Shown: positions 25,341 to 34,756, counted from the stretch's first letter. The stretch is 64,000 bases of DNA from Thermococcus sp. (GCF_015521605.1 NZ_WANV01000030.1:62001-126000), one strand, 5' to 3'. The notes: generated from the sequence alone by a model not told the origin. Numbers and translations: made by a program.

Positions 25341-25625
25341 CTACAACTCGTGGTTTTTATCTCCCTTTCCGTTCTGCAGTCTTCTCTCCAGTTCTTCTGG
25401 GGTCAAGTATTCAATCTTGTCTGAGTTGCCAATAATGTAAGGTTCCTTTGGAAATTTTTTACAGTTCTCAAAGTGTTTGATGTCACATAGAATCCACACC
25501 AGGAGTAAAGGCCATGAGGGCAGGAGGGCTAAAACTGCGCTCCAAACTATAGATTCAGTCAAGAAAAAAAGAGGAAGGAACACAATAATATACGCGAGAA
25601 AGAACTTCTTAAGATACTTACTCAT
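25341..25625 (-). CDS. Small membrane protein, candidate immunity protein (module 5)
   Basis: A 94-residue protein with two to three membrane spans in its N-terminal half (FFLAYIIVFLPLFFL and WSAVLALLPSWPLLLVWILC) and a charged cytoplasmic-looking tail. The start overlaps the stop of the module 5 cassette (ATGA), so the pair is translationally coupled. Confidence 0.62.
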   Translation of the reverse strand: MSKYLKKFFLAYIIVFLPLFFLTESIVWSAVLALLPSWPLLLVWILCDIKHFENCKKFPKEPYIIGNSDKIEYLTPEELERRLQNGKGDKNHEL

Positions 25626-26527
25626 GAGACATCACCCCCGTAACTCTTGTCTTCAATCAGATACTGACCGAGCATACCGACGAAACTACCAGTGGAGCCA
25701 CCTAACACGGTCTGCCCCATTCCTGTTACTGCCATGTCTCCAAAAATTGCAGGGGCAAGACACGATGCTCCATACATAGAGACTAATGTAAATGTAGGAG
25801 TTATGATAACATACTGTGTCCATTTCTTCTTCACGTATCCGTCGTATTTGACTGTGATGACCTCTTTCTCACTTTGTGTTAGTGTTTCTGTTGGTATAAA
25901 GTCTATTGCCTTGTATATTCTTAAGCTGATCGTATGGTTCTTGGGCAAAAATTGGATCCTTGTCGTGTTGTAACACACTCTACGCTGGCATACTGTCCCA
26001 CCGCTTTCCTCGACACTATGGACAAAGCTCAATGCAGTTGCTGATGGTCCGTACATAATCTGAGCCAGCCCATCACTGAACTTAACCTCGTACTTTATCG
26101 TCAAGCTGGAATTTCCTGATAGAATCCTTGTATTAAGCCAAAAGGTCTCGATGTCATCAATCACAACTCTTGGGGCTATTTGGATTCTTGGACCGTTATT
26201 CTTTATATTTACAGTGCAGAAAACTTTGTCTTTGTCAAGTCTCCATTCATACAGTCCAACTTCTTTTGGCATACAGGAAAAGCCTGTAATTTCCAAGTTT
26301 GTATTGTTTATGCTAGACTCATCCTTCTGAAAATCTTCAATGGAATTAACCTCTATACTCCCGCTCCTCGACGCTTCCAGTTTTCCGTCCTCCCAGACTT
26401 CTACTCGCCACTGGTGATAACCAGCTTTAGCACTTTCGGATCCTTGGATCTTCATTATAAGTAGAGAAGATGCAAAGGAGGGAGAGAACCCAGCAAGGAG
26501 ACTTTTCGCGAAGCTCACCTCTATCAC
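25622..26527 (-). CDS. Orphan C-terminal cassette (module 5)
   Basis: A 301-codon frame opened by a GTG, with an ATG at residue 25 as alternative. It carries repeat A (WEDGKLEASRSGSIEV) near residues 45-60, then beta-rich domains (VFCTVNIKNNGPRIQIAPRV), a CQRRVC pair that could form a disulphide, and a C-terminal glycine-rich hydrophobic segment (SCLAPAIFGDMAVTGMGQTV). No signal peptide. The N-terminal 35 residues do not look like the rest and are probably a shifted or decayed remainder of the preceding domain, so expression on its own is doubtful. Confidence 0.6.
   Translation of the reverse strand: MIEVSFAKSLLAGFSPSFASSLLIMKIQGSESAKAGYHQWRVEVWEDGKLEASRSGSIEVNSIEDFQKDESSINNTNLEITGFSCMPKEVGLYEWRLDKDKVFCTVNIKNNGPRIQIAPRVVIDDIETFWLNTRILSGNSSLTIKYEVKFSDGLAQIMYGPSATALSFVHSVEESGGTVCQRRVCYNTTRIQFLPKNHTISLRIYKAIDFIPTETLTQSEKEVITVKYDGYVKKKWTQYVIITPTFTLVSMYGASCLAPAIFGDMAVTGMGQTVLGGSTGSFVGMLGQYLIEDKSYGGDVS
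26358..26416 (-). repeat. Junction repeat A, copy 2
   Basis: Second copy of the cassette junction repeat. CCGCTCCTCG, CGCTTCCAGTTTTCCGTC and CTCCCAGACTTCTA are shared with copy 1 apart from single-base changes. Similarity stops soon after the motif, where the cassette sequences diverge. Confidence 0.72.
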
Positions 26528-27701: not shown

Positions 27702-28076
27702 TCACCCCGTAATGTAGTCAAGGTAACCAAATACTCTCCGTGAATACTCGACTGCGTTCCTTGTCCACACTATTGCCTTGTTTGATCCCTTCAGGAATAT
27801 CAGTGTAATAGCAATATCCACTGTGACTACTTTGTTGTTTTGAGTTATTTTGCCACCACCATAGCCCTTGAACTCAACTGTGCCCTCAGAGGTCTTTAAG
27901 GTATATGGTAGCTGTAGAGAATACGTGCTCCCCCAGAGCCCCAGCTCTAATACTAAAAGGGGAACCTCTGCACTCGAAGTAAATTTTATGACAATTTTAG
28001 TGAAATACAAATCATTACATTCAAATCCCACCTGCTCTAACTCTACTCCCCTCATTGGCTTTACTTCCATCCTCAT
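27702..28076 (-). CDS. Orphan C-terminal cassette (module 3)
   Basis: A 124-codon frame from ATG 28076; the same frame stays open about 60 bases further upstream through junction repeat B (NYDGKPNGNREEHWSEMR). The body, LEQVGFECNDLYFTKIVIKF and so on, aligns with the residues after repeat B in the module 2 cassette (LKQVTSECDPIYFKYN), and then diverges, ending with AVEYSRRVFGYLDYITG. No signal peptide and no upstream domains remain. A toxin tip without its secretion head. Confidence 0.6.
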   Translation of the reverse strand: MRMEVKPMRGVELEQVGFECNDLYFTKIVIKFTSSAEVPLLVLELGLWGSTYSLQLPYTLKTSEGTVEFKGYGGGKITQNNKVVTVDIAITLIFLKGSNKAIVWTRNAVEYSRRVFGYLDYITG

Positions 28077-28130
28077 CTCGCTCCAGTGTTCTTCTCTGTT
28101 TCCGTTAGGTTTGCCGTCGTAATTGTCTGG
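28072..28130 (-). repeat. Junction repeat B, copy 2
   Basis: Encodes NYDGKPNGNREEHWSEMR in the cassette frame. The upstream membrane gene reads the same DNA in another frame (IQTITTANLTETEKNTGAR). Shares GAAGAACACTGGAGCGAG with copy 3. Confidence 0.75.
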
Positions 28131-28849
28131 ATAACATTTTCATCCTGATTACTACCAACTTCGTGCATCAGTATAAGTAGTGTTAAGAGAAATGTCCATG
28201 CAATAGAACCGACAATCGGTAGCAAAAGGCCTGTCCAAGGATCCACTATACTCGGAACTAATGGAATGTACAAGAATATATAAACCCACGGTGTGAGTTT
28301 GATTATTTTCTTCTTAGTGACATCATTTTGTGAGCTAGCTAATCTGTAAATGACTACAAATACTATTACTTCACAGATAATGAGGAAAATCCTATACACA
28401 GATGCCTCTGAGATGACGAACAGTTTGTAATTAATCCCCACAAGGCTTACAATGACTATTATCGTAAGAAGCAAAGGGGCAACTTTACCTATATTGAAAA
28501 CCCTTTCCAAGAGCAAGATCCAGCGTACGTTCCTTAAATCCAAATACATGAAAAACCAGAATGCCGGCAAACCGACAAAAATAAGTATCCTAACAGGAAG
28601 TGATACTTTTATGCTTGCGCCCATCAAAAAACCTAGCCAATAAAAGAAGAACCCTGCAAACTTGGGATCATCCCCAATGTATACTAAGAAAAACAAGATT
28701 AGAATTATAGGCATTGTCATCAATCCTAAAACTTTGGTTGAATGAACACCCTCATGATGCAAGAGAGCTGCAATTCCTAATTGTGAGAGAATAAATAAAA
28801 AGAGAGACTTCCATATCCCCTTGAAGGACACCCTTTCCGACATCCTCAT
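28073..28849 (-). CDS. Multi-spanning membrane protein, candidate immunity protein (module 2)
   Basis: A 258-residue protein with seven to eight membrane spans (FLFILSQLGIAALLHHEG, MTMPIILILFFLVYIGDD, PLLLTIIVIVSLVGINYKLF). ATG 28849 overlaps the stop of the module 2 cassette (ATGA). The last 20 residues are read out of frame through junction repeat B, so the native C-terminus was probably replaced when module 3 was joined. Confidence 0.62.
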   Translation of the reverse strand: MRMSERVSFKGIWKSLFLFILSQLGIAALLHHEGVHSTKVLGLMTMPIILILFFLVYIGDDPKFAGFFFYWLGFLMGASIKVSLPVRILIFVGLPAFWFFMYLDLRNVRWILLLERVFNIGKVAPLLLTIIVIVSLVGINYKLFVISEASVYRIFLIICEVIVFVVIYRLASSQNDVTKKKIIKLTPWVYIFLYIPLVPSIVDPWTGLLLPIVGSIAWTFLLTLLILMHEVGSNQDENVIQTITTANLTETEKNTGAR

Positions 28850-30054
28850 CCCCTCCACCATGTTATAGCGTACTCTTTCATCCAGTTGGCAAGCCAGTTG
28901 GCTTCTGGTGGAAGCTTATTTAGGATATCCTGAATAAACTTAATGTTGGCGATAGGTGCGGATCTTTTCCCGAGTTTGTATGTTAAGAGTGCATCGGCAG
29001 CAATGTCTGCAACTACTGCCATGTGGTCTACTTCTACATAGACCCTGCTCTGGAGAGTAAAGCGCTGAATCCCGAGTTTATCAAAGGGCACGTCGTGAAT
29101 TATTTTTACTGGAATCCTCGCTCCATAAATCCCTTCTACTTGAATATCATTCCATGCGTCTTCCCAATAGGGAAATATGTCCCCAATAACAAAGATATCA
29201 GGTTTTGATATCTTGAAGTGTGCGATAGACGTTATGGTGGAATAACCTCCGGTCGGTATTGTTTTGGGATCAATGTAACTGACTACTGGTGAAAAGCTTC
29301 CTGCTGGAAATTGCAGATACTTGTTTAATATTGAAACATCAATATCCGAAACGATATCCCCTGTCACTTTTAAGTCGTAGCTGTATCCATTGTAAATTGT
29401 TAATCGACAAGTGAGAGTCGCCTCATAGTTTCCCATATTGTACTTGAAGTATATTGGATCACACTCCGACGTTACTTGCTTAAGTTGATCACCAGTTTTC
29501 ACTGTCACCCTCACCTCGCTCCAGTGTTCTTCTCCTGCTCCGTTTGGTTTTCCATCATAATTGTCAAGGAAAAGTTTGATAGTATGATTGCCGATTCCTA
29601 TAAGGGGATGCGAGAACACTAGTAGTGAGTCCCCGTTAGCATTTACGGGGATCTCCGCCGTAATGTTCTTAATCCTCTCCCCGTCAACTTCAATGAATCC
29701 TCTAACTTGAATTGGGGATCTGTCATAATTCCACGCTTTCACTTGCAAATACACCTCGCCGCCACCTTCAAGCTCATGAGGATATACAGTCAAAACAACG
29801 TTGAATAAGTCGCTGGGGACCCCACTCACGGTTATCTCCCCGCTCCTCGATGCTTCCAGTTTTCCGTCTTCCCAGGCTTCTATTCTATAGTCGTGCTCTC
29901 CGGCCTGAGCAGTCCACGTTAAAGTGACGCTCCCCGTGCTCCCACCACCGATCGTGAGGCTTTTGCTTGACTTTTCTTGGCCATCAATGAAAAGCTTTAC
30001 TGTTACTGTCCTAGACCTTGATACTGGATTTTTCACGCTCACATCAAAGCTCAC
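28846..30054 (-). CDS. Orphan C-terminal cassette with two CARDB-like domains (module 2)
   Basis: The longest orphan cassette, 402 codons from a GTG at 30054; the frame is open only eight codons further, to a TAA. It starts in the middle of a CARDB-like domain (SVSFDVSVKNP), then has repeat A (AWEDGKLEASRSGEITV), a second CARDB-like domain (LTVYPHELEGGGEVYLQV), repeat B (NYDGKPNGAGEEHWSEVR) and a variable C-terminal region of about 200 residues ending ANWMKEYAITWWRG. There is no signal peptide, so it cannot be secreted as it stands. Because it holds both repeat A and repeat B, it shows their order in an intact protein. Confidence 0.65.
   Translation of the reverse strand: MSFDVSVKNPVSRSRTVTVKLFIDGQEKSSKSLTIGGGSTGSVTLTWTAQAGEHDYRIEAWEDGKLEASRSGEITVSGVPSDLFNVVLTVYPHELEGGGEVYLQVKAWNYDRSPIQVRGFIEVDGERIKNITAEIPVNANGDSLLVFSHPLIGIGNHTIKLFLDNYDGKPNGAGEEHWSEVRVTVKTGDQLKQVTSECDPIYFKYNMGNYEATLTCRLTIYNGYSYDLKVTGDIVSDIDVSILNKYLQFPAGSFSPVVSYIDPKTIPTGGYSTITSIAHFKISKPDIFVIGDIFPYWEDAWNDIQVEGIYGARIPVKIIHDVPFDKLGIQRFTLQSRVYVEVDHMAVVADIAADALLTYKLGKRSAPIANIKFIQDILNKLPPEANWLANWMKEYAITWWRG
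29512..29572 (-). repeat. Junction repeat B, copy 3
   Basis: Encodes NYDGKPNGAGEEHWSEVR inside the module 2 cassette, the intact context for the repeat. Confidence 0.75.
29829..29901 (-). repeat. Junction repeat A, copy 3
   Basis: Encodes GEHDYRIEAWEDGKLEASRS inside the module 2 cassette, the intact context for the repeat, where it forms the last strands of a CARDB-like domain. Confidence 0.75.
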
Positions 30055-30120: not shown

Positions 30121-30342
30121 TTATGATTTGGATTGTGTTTCGTGTTTTAACTTTAATGATTGAATTCGCCCGGCTATGCTTAACTTTAGTTCGCCAACAT
30201 CATCAAAGAGTGCCCAGGCAAATAACCAGGGTATTATAAACACTAAAATTAACGCAATGAGCCCTCCATAAATTTCCGTCTCCATGAGGATGGGAAAGTT
30301 CATTGCTACTATACTGGCCAGTATAACACGGTAAACTTTCAT
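30121..30342 (-). CDS. Small membrane protein, C-terminal half of a split immunity-like protein (module 1b)
   Basis: A 73-residue protein with two membrane spans (VILASIVAMNFPILM and GGLIALILVFIIPWLFAWAL). It aligns by eye with the second half of the 190-residue membrane protein at 31054-31623 (MLVFVLSFLSILIIPVVLE and GGVLLWFIILLAPLGVMWSM). The start overlaps the stop of its first-half partner (ATGA). Confidence 0.6.
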   Translation of the reverse strand: MKVYRVILASIVAMNFPILMETEIYGGLIALILVFIIPWLFAWALFDDVGELKLSIAGRIQSLKLKHETQSKS

Positions 30343-30611
30343 AATTTTCCCTCCAGCATGTTAATTTCTTCTTCGAGATTAGTTAGGTTTGTTTTTTCAG
30401 AGTGAGCTAGGGCTCCGTATATTAAAAGCGGCACTAGAAGGAGTATGGAATATCCCAAAGATACAATAGAGACAGCAATTGCTGATATGCTGTAAAGTAT
30501 CATGGAGATCAGTTCTCCAGCACTGGGGCGTACCTTGAGCACAATACTTATTGTTAAAATCATATATGCTAGTACCACAATTGAATTCCATATTGGGATG
30601 TAGCTAATCAT
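30339..30611 (-). CDS. Small membrane protein, N-terminal half of a split immunity-like protein (module 1b)
   Basis: A 90-residue protein with three membrane spans (MISYIPIWNSIVVLAYMILT at the start). It aligns by eye with the first half of the protein at 31054-31623, including the LEEEI / LERPRI end. Here the protein is encoded as two ATGA-coupled genes, there as one. Confidence 0.6.
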   Translation of the reverse strand: MISYIPIWNSIVVLAYMILTISIVLKVRPSAGELISMILYSISAIAVSIVSLGYSILLLVPLLIYGALAHSEKTNLTNLEEEINMLEGKL

Positions 30612-30756
30612 CTGTTCCCCTCCTAACGTGGTTTTCGAGATTTAATAGTCTGCGATTGATTTTTCTGAGTTCTCTAAGGAGCCTACGGCGGAAGAAGTAC
30701 ATTAGAAATAAATAAAAGACCCAAGGAAGCACCATCAGTAGATATGCCTCGGGCAT
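30604..30756 (-). CDS. 50-residue single-span protein (module 1b)
   Basis: Starts MPEAYLLMVLPWVFYLFLMY and continues with a strongly basic helix (FFRRRLLRELRKINRRLLNL). It follows the module 1b cassette with a GGAGGGTGA ribosome binding site and overlaps the next start. It is a paralogue of the 50-residue protein at 31620-31772: same length, same place and the shared PWxFYxxL core. Confidence 0.58.
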   Translation of the reverse strand: MPEAYLLMVLPWVFYLFLMYFFRRRLLRELRKINRRLLNLENHVRRGTDD

Positions 30757-30761
30757 GTCAT

Positions 30762-31127
30762 TCACCCTCCTGGAAGGAACAGAGGCTTTAGTAAGTACTC
30801 AGCTACTCCTTTAGCTCTCTCCTTTGTTGATTCCCTTGCTCCAATAGTTTCAGCGAGATTATACACCCATATACTTCCTCCTACAAGTTTCCCATATATT
30901 CCAAAAGTGGCTTCTAATGCAACTTTTCCCTTTTCTGTGGTTGTGAGCATCGTTCCTGTTGATGATTCTATGGTGGCTATCTCAGAAAAAGTGGCTAACC
31001 CCGATAATAATGCTGGGGAGAATGCCATTGCAGTACCCTTCATGATGCCGTCACTAGCATCTTCGTTCCAGTATTTGCTTCCTGTGTATCTTGTCACTAT
31101 TATCCCCTCCAGGCTCTTGCATCTCAT
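30762..31127 (-). CDS. Orphan C-terminal cassette (module 1b)
   Basis: A 121-codon frame that starts inside the 3' end of the upstream membrane gene. Residues 5-37 repeat the junction of the full-length protein (SLEGIIVTRYTGSKYWN, GIMKGTAMAFSP), after which the two diverge completely except for the ending FLPGG. The variable part holds hydrophobic, glycine-rich segments that could insert into a membrane. No signal peptide. It is a second C-terminal tip for the 994-residue protein. Confidence 0.68.
   Translation of the reverse strand: MRCKSLEGIIVTRYTGSKYWNEDASDGIMKGTAMAFSPALLSGLATFSEIATIESSTGTMLTTTEKGKVALEATFGIYGKLVGGSIWVYNLAETIGARESTKERAKGVAEYLLKPLFLPGG
31013..31112 (-). repeat. Junction repeat C, copy 1
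   Basis: Encodes SLEGII-x-x-RYTGSKYWN...GIMKGTAMAFSP in the orphan cassette. By eye about four in five bases match copy 2 at 32009-32107, and similarity ends at both edges. Confidence 0.75.
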
Positions 31128-31623
31128 GATTTTGGTCGATACTCTTTGAGATATGTTCTAGTTCTAACTCAAATTCATCAATTTCTGCTAGCATACTCCA
31201 CATTACTCCAAGCGGGGCTAATAATATGATAAACCACAACAAAACGCCACCAAATGGAGCAATTTCCAGTACAACTGGGATAATTAGTATACTCAGAAAG
31301 CTAAGAACAAACACAAGCATCCTGTATCTCTTCGTATTTCCTGTATTTCGAGATACTCTCATGTCGTCCCTGTAGTTTATTCTTGGTCTCTCAAGGTGTT
31401 TGATTATATTTTGAGTTATCTGGAGGAATATTGAGTAATATACTAATGGTATGAGTAAGGAAAAAGAGTACCACTTTGAAATCTTCGAAGTAATTACTGC
31501 TGAAATGGTGTAACCGGCCAACAAGAGAGAGAGGATTCTGCTGGGATTCTTTTTTATTAACATTACCCCTAACGAGGTGTAGAGTACAACAATTGCGGCT
31601 GTTAAAATATTGATCGTTATCAT
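31054..31623 (-). CDS. Multi-spanning membrane protein, candidate immunity protein (module 1)
   Basis: A 189-residue protein starting MITINILTAAIVVLYTSLGV with about six membrane spans in two groups of three. ATG 31623 overlaps the stop of the 50-residue gene; the longer frame upstream belongs to that gene's DNA. The last 25 residues (MQEPGGDNSDKIHRKQ) are out-of-frame reading through junction repeat C. It is the fused form of the pair at 30121-30611. Confidence 0.62.
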   Translation of the reverse strand: MITINILTAAIVVLYTSLGVMLIKKNPSRILSLLLAGYTISAVITSKISKWYSFSLLIPLVYYSIFLQITQNIIKHLERPRINYRDDMRVSRNTGNTKRYRMLVFVLSFLSILIIPVVLEIAPFGGVLLWFIILLAPLGVMWSMLAEIDEFELELEHISKSIDQNHEMQEPGGDNSDKIHRKQILERRC

Positions 31624-31772
31624 TTTATAACCTCCTCTGAAGTTTTTAGGGGTTCTTGTAGAGCTTCCTTCATGTCTTTTAGCTTTTTGTACGTGGCTAT
31701 GCGTAAATGGAGTATAATCAAAAAATAAAAAAACCACGGGGCGAGTAGTATGACATATTCTTTACTGTCCAT
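31620..31772 (-). CDS. 50-residue single-span protein (module 1)
   Basis: Starts MDSKEYVILLAPWFFYFLII and continues with a charged helix. It begins within the stop codon of the 994-residue protein (TAATG) and ends overlapping the next start (ATGA), so the three are coupled. Paralogue of the 50-residue gene at 30604-30756. Together with the larger membrane protein it may make a two-part immunity complex. Confidence 0.6.
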   Translation of the reverse strand: MDSKEYVILLAPWFFYFLIILHLRIATYKKLKDMKEALQEPLKTSEEVIK

Positions 31773-34756
31773 TACAGACCCCCCGGAAGAAGCACGTTTT
31801 CAATAAATCTCTTAATGACGTTTTTAATTCCCTCTTTGATATTTTCTGAAGTTTCTATTATGTCCACTGCCTTAAAAGTAGTGATGTAGCCTCCCACAAA
31901 TGTAGTATAGTGACCTAACCCGTCTTTAGCGAGTATTGTAGCGCCCTCAGTAATACTTTTCGAACTCCATGCTGCCGGAAACGCATAGATAATCTCTATT
32001 AACAATGGAGAGAATGCCATTGCAGTTCCTTTCATGATTCCTCTGTTAGCGTCATAGTTCCAGTACTTACTTCCCGTGTACCTCGCCATTATTATCCCCT
32101 CCAGACTCATGTACTGATCAGATCCCAATCTAACTGTAACCCTCAAGTAATGTGGTGTATCTGCTCTCTTTAAAGTGTAGTGGCAAGTTCCGTCTTCACA
32201 CGACCATACATTGATTCTGGGTGTTAAATCCCGCACGTCACTGAGCTCAAGAGCTTCAGCCATTTTTTCATCAAGTGGAACAACAACTTCTGCTATTTTG
32301 CCACTGAATTTTGCTGGGATGACATCATTGATGAGATCAGCGCTGATTACCTTCGAGGTATCTTCGTCATTATCAAGCGTCTTGCTCGTTATTGAATAGG
32401 GCACATCAGATGACAAGGTATTCTTTTTGACTATAATGTCGCATACTCCTGTCTCCCCAAGTAACACCGGATCGCTAGGACACTCAAGACTGAGGGTTAG
32501 GTCGGTGGGAGTGCTTACTTCAATAGTTTTTGAATATAGGGGTAAGCCATTGACCTTTAGTGTTATTCTGTATGTGCCTGCATTACTAAATGTATGAGTC
32601 GTATAGTCTTCAAGATGGCTGTCTGGACTTACAACCACTCCGTAATAAGTTTTTTTGAGTATCTTCTGACCATTATCAATTTCAAGTGTTACAGTCGGAT
32701 TGGATAATTGTCCTTTAGAAGTCGTTATTACGTAGCGGAATGTCACAGCATCCCCCGCGTACACTATTGAAGGAGAGAAACTAAATGCGCCGTTTATAGA
32801 CCTTTCTTCGTCTTGGTCTGAACTCACCGTAACGCTCGTTTGGGCGCCCTTTGACTTTCCGTTCCAGTAGATTGAGGCGTGGGTAACGTAAGTGCTGGTG
32901 TCACTGTACGTCACATTCTGCTCCAGCAGGACTTTCTCCCCGTTATTGGGGACATCAACAGTTCCGGAGTACGTTCTGGAATTCGTTGGAGAGTATGGAA
33001 TCGTAATTGAATACTCTAGATTGTCCAAGGAGGCATTGTTTTCATTCCTCACGACAACCTTGTAAGTCACGCCCTCGCCCTCCATAATGCTGGTTCTTGA
33101 AGCTTCAACTGTCAGATAGACCCTGTTCCAATCCACTGGTGAGGTCAAATCAACCGTGGCGGAGTACTCTTCTCGTATCGTTCTTTCATCGCAACTTGGA
33201 GAGGCTGAGAGCGGTTCTAAACCCCCTCCAGAGAGAGGGACTGCCCCGCAGGAGGGAGTGTAGGTAACCTCAACTTTCCCACTCACGTGGAGCTCTCCGT
33301 CCATGGTGTGGGTTACTGAAAACCTCCCACTTTCCCAGGTGTAGGTTTCTCCAGAATTCAGGAACGAGACGCTCCCGCTGTCGGAACCACTGCCCGTGTA
33401 ATCGTCAACGTTGATCCTGATGTTGTTTATCGCGTTGTTTTCCGCACTCATCTTAACTTCAATGTGGTACTCTACTCTGCCCGGAACGTTACTGTCGATC
33501 ACGACTTTAATGTCGTTAATTTTCAGGACTCCCTCGGTGTTCTCTGGAATGAGCGCTAGCAGTGTAACTCCCTCTGGCTGGGTTCCTGTTGTTGGGATCG
33601 AGCTATCTGCAGGGGTACTGAGGGGTTCTTTCGAGGATAGCATTGATGGTAAGATTATCGGGTTCTTGATCGGTAGAGGTTTTGACTCGATGGGTGTTGT
33701 ATCGGTGTTGCTCTCGATAACCGCAACCCCAAGTGCTTCCTTTAACTCTGCGACCTTCTGATTGAGGATCCAATCCAATTCGGCGTTGGTATTGCCGTAG
33801 CTTCTTGCATTTATGAGTGTGTAAATGTCTTCAACAAGCTCATAGGCCTCCAGTGCGCTTGGCCAGTAATAAATGGTTGTTGTCGTGGTAACTTGTGTGG
33901 GGGTTGTTGAACGTGAGATTGTCTTGAACATCAAGCCGCCATTCTTAACGGGAGTTATGTTCTCGACCTTTCCCTGCAATGTAACGAGTCCTGTTTCTTG
34001 GTGGAGCATTAGGGTGGTGGTGCCGGCTTGACCGGTTATGAGCTTGTACGTTGCTTCCCTTAGATTATTGATGGCAAGCTTCATTTTCTGGTAATCCTTC
34101 TGGTAGTATCCCATGTAGAAAAATACCCATGGATCCGCCAGAACAGGGTTTATCTGTTTTCCAGGATCGTTGGTTGTGGGAACTTCCATTGGCTGGATCC
34201 ATTTCCATTTCTTCAGCGCCCAAGCTTCGTAGTGGTTGTATTTAAACGCTACATCCATGAAGGCCATGGAGAAGTCTTCAAGAAAGGCCGTCATGTTGAA
34301 GTCCTCGTTAATCCCGTCCGCGTTTTTGATAATGTAATCTTCCAGGGCTTGAATCTGCTCATCAGTCCAGCCTTGAGCCTTCAAAGCCTCAACCGTCTCA
34401 TGGGGAAGGCCGTTCCGGCTGATGTTCTGAGCAATTTCTCTAAGCTCCTCGGCGGTGTAGTACGTCTTAACTCCGGAAGCCTTCAGTTCTTCCAGAGCCT
34501 GCCAGATTGAGGCTGAAATGTTGGCCGCGTTATCTGCACCCAGACGGGAGTTTTGAATCAACTCTTGGGCCAGCGTAGTGTTTCCGGTGGTGTTGAACTG
34601 AACCACGAGTTCGGCTTCTTTGTTGAGAATCTCCCAGAATTTCTCGTACGGGTCGCTCTGGCTTTCAACGGTGGTGGCGTAGGCTGTGCTTCCAGCTGCC
34701 GTCACTATCGACCCCAGCATGAGAATTATCATCAACACTCCTACTGCCTTCCTCAT
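31772..34756 (-). CDS. Large secreted protein, head of the candidate polymorphic toxin locus
   Basis: A 994-residue protein with a clear signal peptide (GVLMIILMLGSIVTAAGSTA). Residues about 30-290 are alpha-helical (DPYEKFWEILNKEAELVVQF); a Ser/Pro/Thr linker follows near 350-395, then several Ig/CARDB-like beta domains, for example VEASRTSIMEGEGVTYKVVV and SFSPSIVYAGDAVTFRYVIT. The last 111 residues (from 884, SLEGIIMARYTGSKYWN) begin with junction repeat C and end in a hydrophobic tip closing LLPGGL. It is the only protein of the island with a signal peptide and it stands first, behind a promoter with GGTGA at the start. There is no C-terminal anchor. Alternative reading: an S-layer-associated or adhesin protein. 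Confidence 0.75.
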   Translation of the reverse strand: MRKAVGVLMIILMLGSIVTAAGSTAYATTVESQSDPYEKFWEILNKEAELVVQFNTTGNTTLAQELIQNSRLGADNAANISASIWQALEELKASGVKTYYTAEELREIAQNISRNGLPHETVEALKAQGWTDEQIQALEDYIIKNADGINEDFNMTAFLEDFSMAFMDVAFKYNHYEAWALKKWKWIQPMEVPTTNDPGKQINPVLADPWVFFYMGYYQKDYQKMKLAINNLREATYKLITGQAGTTTLMLHQETGLVTLQGKVENITPVKNGGLMFKTISRSTTPTQVTTTTTIYYWPSALEAYELVEDIYTLINARSYGNTNAELDWILNQKVAELKEALGVAVIESNTDTTPIESKPLPIKNPIILPSMLSSKEPLSTPADSSIPTTGTQPEGVTLLALIPENTEGVLKINDIKVVIDSNVPGRVEYHIEVKMSAENNAINNIRINVDDYTGSGSDSGSVSFLNSGETYTWESGRFSVTHTMDGELHVSGKVEVTYTPSCGAVPLSGGGLEPLSASPSCDERTIREEYSATVDLTSPVDWNRVYLTVEASRTSIMEGEGVTYKVVVRNENNASLDNLEYSITIPYSPTNSRTYSGTVDVPNNGEKVLLEQNVTYSDTSTYVTHASIYWNGKSKGAQTSVTVSSDQDEERSINGAFSFSPSIVYAGDAVTFRYVITTSKGQLSNPTVTLEIDNGQKILKKTYYGVVVSPDSHLEDYTTHTFSNAGTYRITLKVNGLPLYSKTIEVSTPTDLTLSLECPSDPVLLGETGVCDIIVKKNTLSSDVPYSITSKTLDNDEDTSKVISADLINDVIPAKFSGKIAEVVVPLDEKMAEALELSDVRDLTPRINVWSCEDGTCHYTLKRADTPHYLRVTVRLGSDQYMSLEGIIMARYTGSKYWNYDANRGIMKGTAMAFSPLLIEIIYAFPAAWSSKSITEGATILAKDGLGHYTTFVGGYITTFKAVDIIETSENIKEGIKNVIKRFIENVLLPGGL
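32009..32107 (-). repeat. Junction repeat C, copy 2
   Basis: Marks residues 884-917 of the full-length protein. It is the point where the full-length and orphan C-terminal tips start to differ. Confidence 0.75.

Follow-up and report, generated by a model that had tools for sequence, protein, structure and literature searches.

A repeated coding segment as the probable tip-exchange junction of a VARTIG locus in Thermococcus

INTRODUCTION

Why does the 3′ end of a gene for a large immunoglobulin (Ig)-domain protein recur at the start of a small orphan gene nearby? The question is raised by a 64,000-nucleotide (nt) stretch of the genome of a hyperthermophilic archaeon, Thermococcus sp. (GCF_015521605.1, NZ_WANV01000030.1:62001-126000; hereafter the window), in which a preliminary description had noticed a duplicated motif, here named J, at the end of a 994-amino acid (aa) head protein and at the start of the first orphan cassette. 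The locus fits the variable Thermococcales Ig module (VARTIG; arCOG07710), which is known only from Thermococcales (Makarova et al., 2021; PMC8416519) and whose authors left open where recombination happens and whether the system is a toxin, complement-like or recognition system. The analysis reported here suggests that J is probably the junction at which VARTIG tips are attached, with tips and adjoining membrane-protein genes moving by homologous recombination through the coding sequence of J.

RESULTS

J is a direct repeat within coding sequence

The two J copies of the window (Table 1) are 115 nt long, align without gaps at 78% identity, lie in direct orientation and start 992 nt apart. In frame, copy 1 of the head protein reads SLEGIIMARYTGSKYWNYDANRGIMKGTAMAFSP and copy 2 of the orphan open reading frame (ORF) reads SLEGIIVTRYTGSKYWNEDASDGIMKGTAMAFSP. 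The protein match in the host genome had E = 1.2e-19, and a profile built from all J copies returned exactly two matches there, both of them the window copies (E about 1e-22 and 1e-23); the repeat is therefore not due to chance. These results confirm that J is real and that its two copies encode the same peptide, as first described. The tips that follow, T1 on the head protein and T2 in the orphan, had been thought to differ except for a shared LPGG end. The shared end is present, but T1 and T2 are diverged relatives, 35-36% identical across the whole tip (E = 5e-7 to 1e-6).

J precedes at least six classes of tip

J was surveyed in 115 genomes of the phylum, and tips, partner genes and heads were counted in the 94 genomes of the family, both collections holding one genome per species. 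The survey showed 14 significant copies in nine of the 115 genomes, all 14 within one family, in keeping with the restriction to Thermococcales known for VARTIG. The core reads ARYTGSKYWNxDAxxGI, in which Y, G, S, Y, W, D, A and I are invariant. At least six tip classes stand behind J: T1, full-length in the window; T2, an orphan in the window, G017 and G013; T3, full-length in G001, on Ig linkers in G002, G092 and G093 and an orphan in G054; T4, on the head gene of G071 and an orphan in G054; T5 in G054; and T6 in G092. One G071 copy continues into a CARDB-type Ig domain. T3 and T4 were each seen both fused and as orphans starting at J, that is, as exchangeable C-terminal tips on a constant head and as standalone cassettes, the arrangement of polymorphic toxins.

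The preliminary description had named the lack of any relative with another tip after the motif as fatal to its proposal of interchangeable tips. Eight other genomes carry J, most of them with different tips, and the proposal therefore survives that test. G054 carries Ig-J-T5, J-T4 and J-T3 in succession, and in G092 and G093 related Ig linkers are joined to T3 at J, although different genera are involved. The T2 orphan of G017 retains about 90 nt of Ig linker upstream. In a collection of genome contigs, the whole protein found no match and the J alignment found one locus; no relatives were found among IMG/VR viral contigs.

DNA identity switches at J from both sides

When G002 (T3) and G071 (T4), which carry different tips, were aligned, identity in successive segments upstream of J was 90, 89 and 85%, in the core 88%, and downstream 50, 38, 35 and 27%. 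The T2 orphans of G017 and G013, which share a tip, showed the reverse, with 22, 33 and 33% upstream, 91% in the core and 93-100% downstream. By ungapped extension, the match ended +32 to +87 nt from a reference codon in J in 17 pairs with different tips, and began -5 to -28 nt from that codon in eight pairs with the same tip and unrelated upstream DNA; these pairs share members and are not independent, and they span five tip classes and four genera. At the level of aligned sequence, these comparisons show J to be the point at which DNA identity switches, whichever side is followed, which supports the earlier claim that J joins interchangeable tips.

A sister species differs from the window at both J copies

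The window and the G071 locus lie at the same chromosomal site, with flanks of 82-84% DNA identity. Homology of the heads reaches the end of J and then stops, the window continuing with T1 and G071 with T4 and three small membrane genes. It restarts shortly upstream of the T1 partner genes, G071 having these genes but no T1. The two loci part again at the second J, where the T2 cassette begins, present in the window only. The differences between the window and G071 fall exactly at the two J copies.

Another junction, JB, has the peptide DNYDGKPNGxGEEHWSE and lies in the second Ig gene of the window. Within the window, 29498-29565 recurs as 28060-28127 with the shared peptide DNYDGKPNGxxEEHWSE, the latter copy opening the small gene 27702-28076. 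At JB the order in G071 is head-JB-tipY-partnerY-JB-tipX and in the window head-JB-tipX. Upstream of JB the window resembles the first G071 copy and downstream it resembles the second; these two copies have about 38 identical nt in common. The window is thus the deletion form of the G071 JB array, the terms naming the forms only, as the change may have gone in either direction. The preliminary description had expected a swap by deletion; both the array and the deletion form exist in these sister species, yet at JB and not at J.

Two further observations concern stacked junctions. At L067, JB, an Ig domain and J stand in series within a single cassette. Another junction-like repeat, JA (peptide AGxHxxRxEVWEDGKLEASRSG), occurs at 29839-29911, in the second Ig gene, and at 26360-26432, at the start of the orphan-like gene 25622-26527, the copies being 79% identical over 73 nt.

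Membrane-protein genes travel with the tips and outlive them

Membrane-protein genes lie directly behind all 13 J-tips, at -26 to +34 nt, and are constant within a tip class, so that each tip has a cognate partner gene directly downstream, as in polymorphic toxin systems. In the window, an ORF of about 50 aa with a single transmembrane (TM) segment, below the usual ORF cut-off, stands directly behind each tip, with larger membrane proteins next to it. T3 and imm3 were found in the identical five of 94 genomes and adjacent in all of them; if relatedness is ignored, the probability that two sets of five agree completely is 1 in 54,891,018. T2 was accompanied by its own set in three of three genomes and T4 in two of two. 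The relatedness of T1 and T2 extends to their partner sets, one of which is fused where the other is split.

Partner sets without an intact tip were seen for T1 in G071 and G013 and for T2 in G001 and G002; none of the 13 J-tips lacked a partner set. In G013, the T1 partner genes stand behind a T1 remnant of about 30 aa that has neither J nor a start. Because G071 keeps the T1 set without T1 and G013 holds this remnant, a tip may be displaced and decay while its partners stay. As far as gene content can tell, these distributions show that tip and partner genes travel together and that partners outlive tips. In this small sample, such an asymmetry would be expected of immunity genes and not of anchors, and the pattern therefore looks immunity-like rather than anchor-like.

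The head protein fits VARTIG

Relatives of the 994-aa protein were found in 51 of the 94 family genomes, most alignments starting from residue 1 and stopping at about residue 700; with the tip switch at J, this is the hypervariable C-terminus on a conserved remainder that characterises VARTIG. A structural model of residues 560-994 showed Ig-type beta domains, with TEP1 and complement proteins among the best fold matches (overall TM-scores low, about 0.2). The last Ig strand terminates within J and model confidence collapses past it, which in this model would place J at a domain boundary. The array begins with the large Ig-domain protein at its 5′ end, followed by small genes that mostly encode membrane proteins. 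Because of this anatomy, and of fold matches that are those named for VARTIG (PMC8416519), the locus fits VARTIG. The C-terminal motif DNNxxxGG is absent from T1 and T2, whereas a G071 gene of the same locus type ends in DNNDVVGG; the absence is not disqualifying, because the motif is present in 31 described VARTIG proteins and is not universal (PMC8416519). The host genome also holds a second VARTIG-type locus (L068, contig C36:118000-136000), with a head gene split into 76 aa and 685 aa and without J.

What the tips may do

Immediately past J the tips, which are 57-93 aa long, have a hydrophobic stretch; they contain no cysteine and not more than one histidine. Scans with Pfam, NCBIfam and PADLOC matched no family in them, toxin families included. 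A search of PDB sequences with an Ig-tip profile gave nothing real, and the AlphaFold model of T3 was unusable (predicted local distance difference test score of 40). Matches of the membrane partners to Ninjurin, SLATT and KwaA were left unused, being far below curated cut-offs or at E = 0.001-0.02. For the T3 partner (L062:9162-9530), PADLOC gave a weak match (E = 0.001) to KwaA, which is a membrane protein from the Kiwa defence system; this may be a chance likeness among membrane proteins.

The tips had been called toxins in the preliminary description. The orphan cassettes and the retained partners favour that view, although no known toxin domain was found, and reading the tips as putative toxins and the partners as putative immunity proteins is well motivated. 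Because the partners are solely membrane proteins, action on the membrane is the simplest guess for such tips. Tentatively, VARTIG may then be an archaeal polymorphic toxin system with a type of weapon not yet described, in which an Ig stalk would carry short, membrane-active, bacteriocin-like tips, cognate membrane proteins would neutralise them, and stacked JA, JB and J would allow reloading by interspecies exchange.

It is rather unlikely that the tips are instead recognition or adhesion ends, with the membrane genes as anchors or display partners and J still the swap point. The lack of a toxin domain, the resemblance of the Ig head to TEP1 and complement folds, and the recognition and complement-like roles proposed in PMC8416519 would all suit such a role. 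However, four genomes hold partner sets without a tip, where tipless anchors would be useless, no J-tip is without its set, and toxin systems typically have orphan cassettes of tip plus partner (PMC3150448, PMC3482391).

Other roles considered for J

Both window copies of J contain GGAGGGG-ATAATA followed by ATG or GTG, and several orphans begin with ATG at J, as would be the case if J were kept in the full-length gene for an internal ribosome-binding site and start codon that also yield a free tip protein. Neither is present at that place in the head- or Ig-linked copies of G002, G071 and G017, and we rejected this very unlikely explanation as the general role of J. That J is the target of a site-specific recombinase that loads cassettes is highly improbable: the breakpoints do cluster within about 100 nt and several cassettes begin at the same place, but third codon positions in J are free to vary (59% identity), no invariant DNA site of 15-30 nt is present, and VARTIG loci have no identifiable integrase (PMC8416519). 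In-place divergence of tips and co-evolution of partners without recombination, J being merely a conserved segment of the last Ig strand, would accord with conservation of J at the protein level rather than as an exact DNA site, but is scarcely tenable and was rejected, since upstream DNA 85-91% identical between genera leads into unrelated tips, and the reverse, and since the window and G071 differ by the presence or absence of cassettes at J.

Features of the locus

The coordinates are collected in Table 1. The neighbour upstream of the head gene encodes a TIM-barrel protein. The final 25 or so codons of T1 partner gene 2 overlap J copy 2 (31054-31127) in a different frame; exchange at this copy would therefore alter the end of that protein too.

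Table 1. Positions of the genes, tips and junctions in the window, counted from its first nucleotide
Feature	Position	Strand	Remarks
Head: large secreted Ig-domain protein, 994 aa, VARTIG type, with C-terminal J and tip T1	31772..34756	-	ORF, relatives, Ig model
J copy 1, in the full-length gene	31997..32111, core 32036-32092	-	Direct repeat and DNA-identity switch point
J copy 2, start of the orphan cassette	31005..31119, core 31044-31100	-	Direct repeat
Tip T1, 87 aa, LPGGL end	31775..32035	-	Intact T1 in window only; remnant of about 30 aa in G013
T1 partner gene 1, 50 aa, one TM, MDSKEYVILLAPWFFYF...	31620..31772	-	Start overlaps T1 stop; homologs in G071 and G013
T1 partner gene 2, 189 aa, four TM	31054..31623	-	62-63% homologs in G071 and G013; kin of T2 partners a and b
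Orphan tip T2 beginning at J, 121 aa, LPGG end	30762..31127	-	ATG at 31127, or GTG within J after GGAGGGG
T2 partner gene z, 50 aa, one TM, MPEAYLLMVLPWVFYLF...	30604..30756	-	Homolog in G001 without T2
T2 partner gene a, 90 aa, TM protein	30339..30611	-	Beside T2 in three of three genomes; without T2 in G001 and G002
T2 partner gene b, 73 aa, TM protein	30121..30342	-	Membrane gene of the T2 set
Second Ig/CARDB gene, own tip X attached at junction JB	28846..30054	-	
Junction JB, DNYDGKPNGAGEEHWSE	29498..29577; further copy 28060-28127	-	

DISCUSSION

We propose that the head protein, composed of a signal peptide, a conserved region and Ig domains, carries a short hydrophobic tip at its C-terminus, and that J would encode the last strand of the final Ig domain together with the first residues of the tip, so that a crossover anywhere within its 60-110 nt or so would preserve frame and fold. 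The tip would move jointly with the small membrane genes right behind it, via homologous recombination in J, the donor DNA probably coming mostly from other strains or species. A displaced tip may decay or persist as an orphan starting at J, and its membrane genes would be retained. In this scheme the partners would be immunity proteins and the tips antagonistic and probably membrane-active, given their hydrophobicity, the lack of a recognised enzyme domain and partners that are membrane proteins only; the orphan in the window may be a store of spare tip and immunity.

What is conserved in J is the protein sequence, not a DNA site (59% at third codon positions vs 84%). Runs of 36-47 identical nt occur in some J pairs, and Pyrococcus furiosus COM1, which takes up DNA, can recombine through flanks of as little as 40 bp (PMC5099854). 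The longest exact run between the two window copies is 17 nt, and copies within one genome are no more alike than copies between genomes. For these reasons, the evidence appears to favour exchange with incoming DNA over frequent switching between the two copies of the window, which agrees with PMC8416519. The preliminary description had envisaged recombination between the window copies that would install T2; J as the swap point stands, whereas the short run and the unexceptional likeness of copies within a genome make that particular event less probable.

Several points weigh against the proposal as a whole. No toxin domain was recognised in the tips. The sample is small, with non-independent pairs and one genome per species. 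T2, for which a fusion to a head had been suggested as a check, is an orphan in all three of the 94 genomes that carry it, never on a complete head. The window J pair, 78% alike with its 17-nt run, falls under the 40-bp flanks of COM1 (PMC5099854).

Archaeal conflict systems of this kind have been predicted, not characterised. The present results address the questions left by the VARTIG authors with one junction located to about 100 nt, tips and membrane genes that move as units, and membrane genes that outlive tips; small tip/partner gene pairs are now named and can be tested directly for toxicity and protection.

Compared with VARTIG as described, the locus shares a secreted Ig protein first in a co-directed array, a hypervariable C-terminus, a TEP1-like Ig region, restriction to Thermococcales, and smaller homologs of the C-terminus and many small membrane proteins downstream; T1 differs in lacking the DNNxxxGG end. 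In that work the recombination sites were unlocated, spread over about 600 nt, and no junction motif was named (PMC8416519), whereas here there is one junction. The joint movement of tips and membrane gene sets, the retained partners and the tip remnant also go beyond it. A literature search returned no later VARTIG study beyond one editorial mention. The system itself was already known; what appears to be new is the exact location of the junction, the partner sets together with the small ORFs in them, and the evidence from tip remnant and retained partners.

With polymorphic toxin systems, which include two-helix pore-forming tips such as Tox-WTIP (Zhang et al., 2012; PMC3482391), the locus shares a constant 5′ gene body, exchangeable 3′ cassettes with adjoining partners, and standalone downstream cassettes. 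It differs in its short hydrophobic tips, with no recognised toxin or processing domain.

A further comparison, drawn already in the preliminary description, is with contact-dependent growth inhibition (CDI), in which CdiA has a VENN junction and orphan cdiA-CT/cdiI modules occur (Poole et al., 2011; PMC3150448). The J motif and the whole head are unrelated to CdiA: J reads RYTGSKYW, and Pfam and NCBIfam scans found neither hemagglutinin repeats nor VENN in the head. The system is archaeal, and its partners are sets of one to three membrane proteins. CdiB is not expected given the archaeal envelope. A start codon stands at the junction in several of the orphans described here, but orphans of CdiA are generally without translation initiation signals. 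In other respects the parallel holds in detail: identity is lost abruptly at the motif, orphan tip-plus-partner cassettes begin at it, the tip adjoins its partner, and partner genes are retained (PMC3150448). Also shared is the fusion of an orphan with the main gene by deletion, its forms being seen here at JB, where the array and deletion form represent the kind of event described for CdiA in Yersinia pestis by Poole et al. (PMC3150448).

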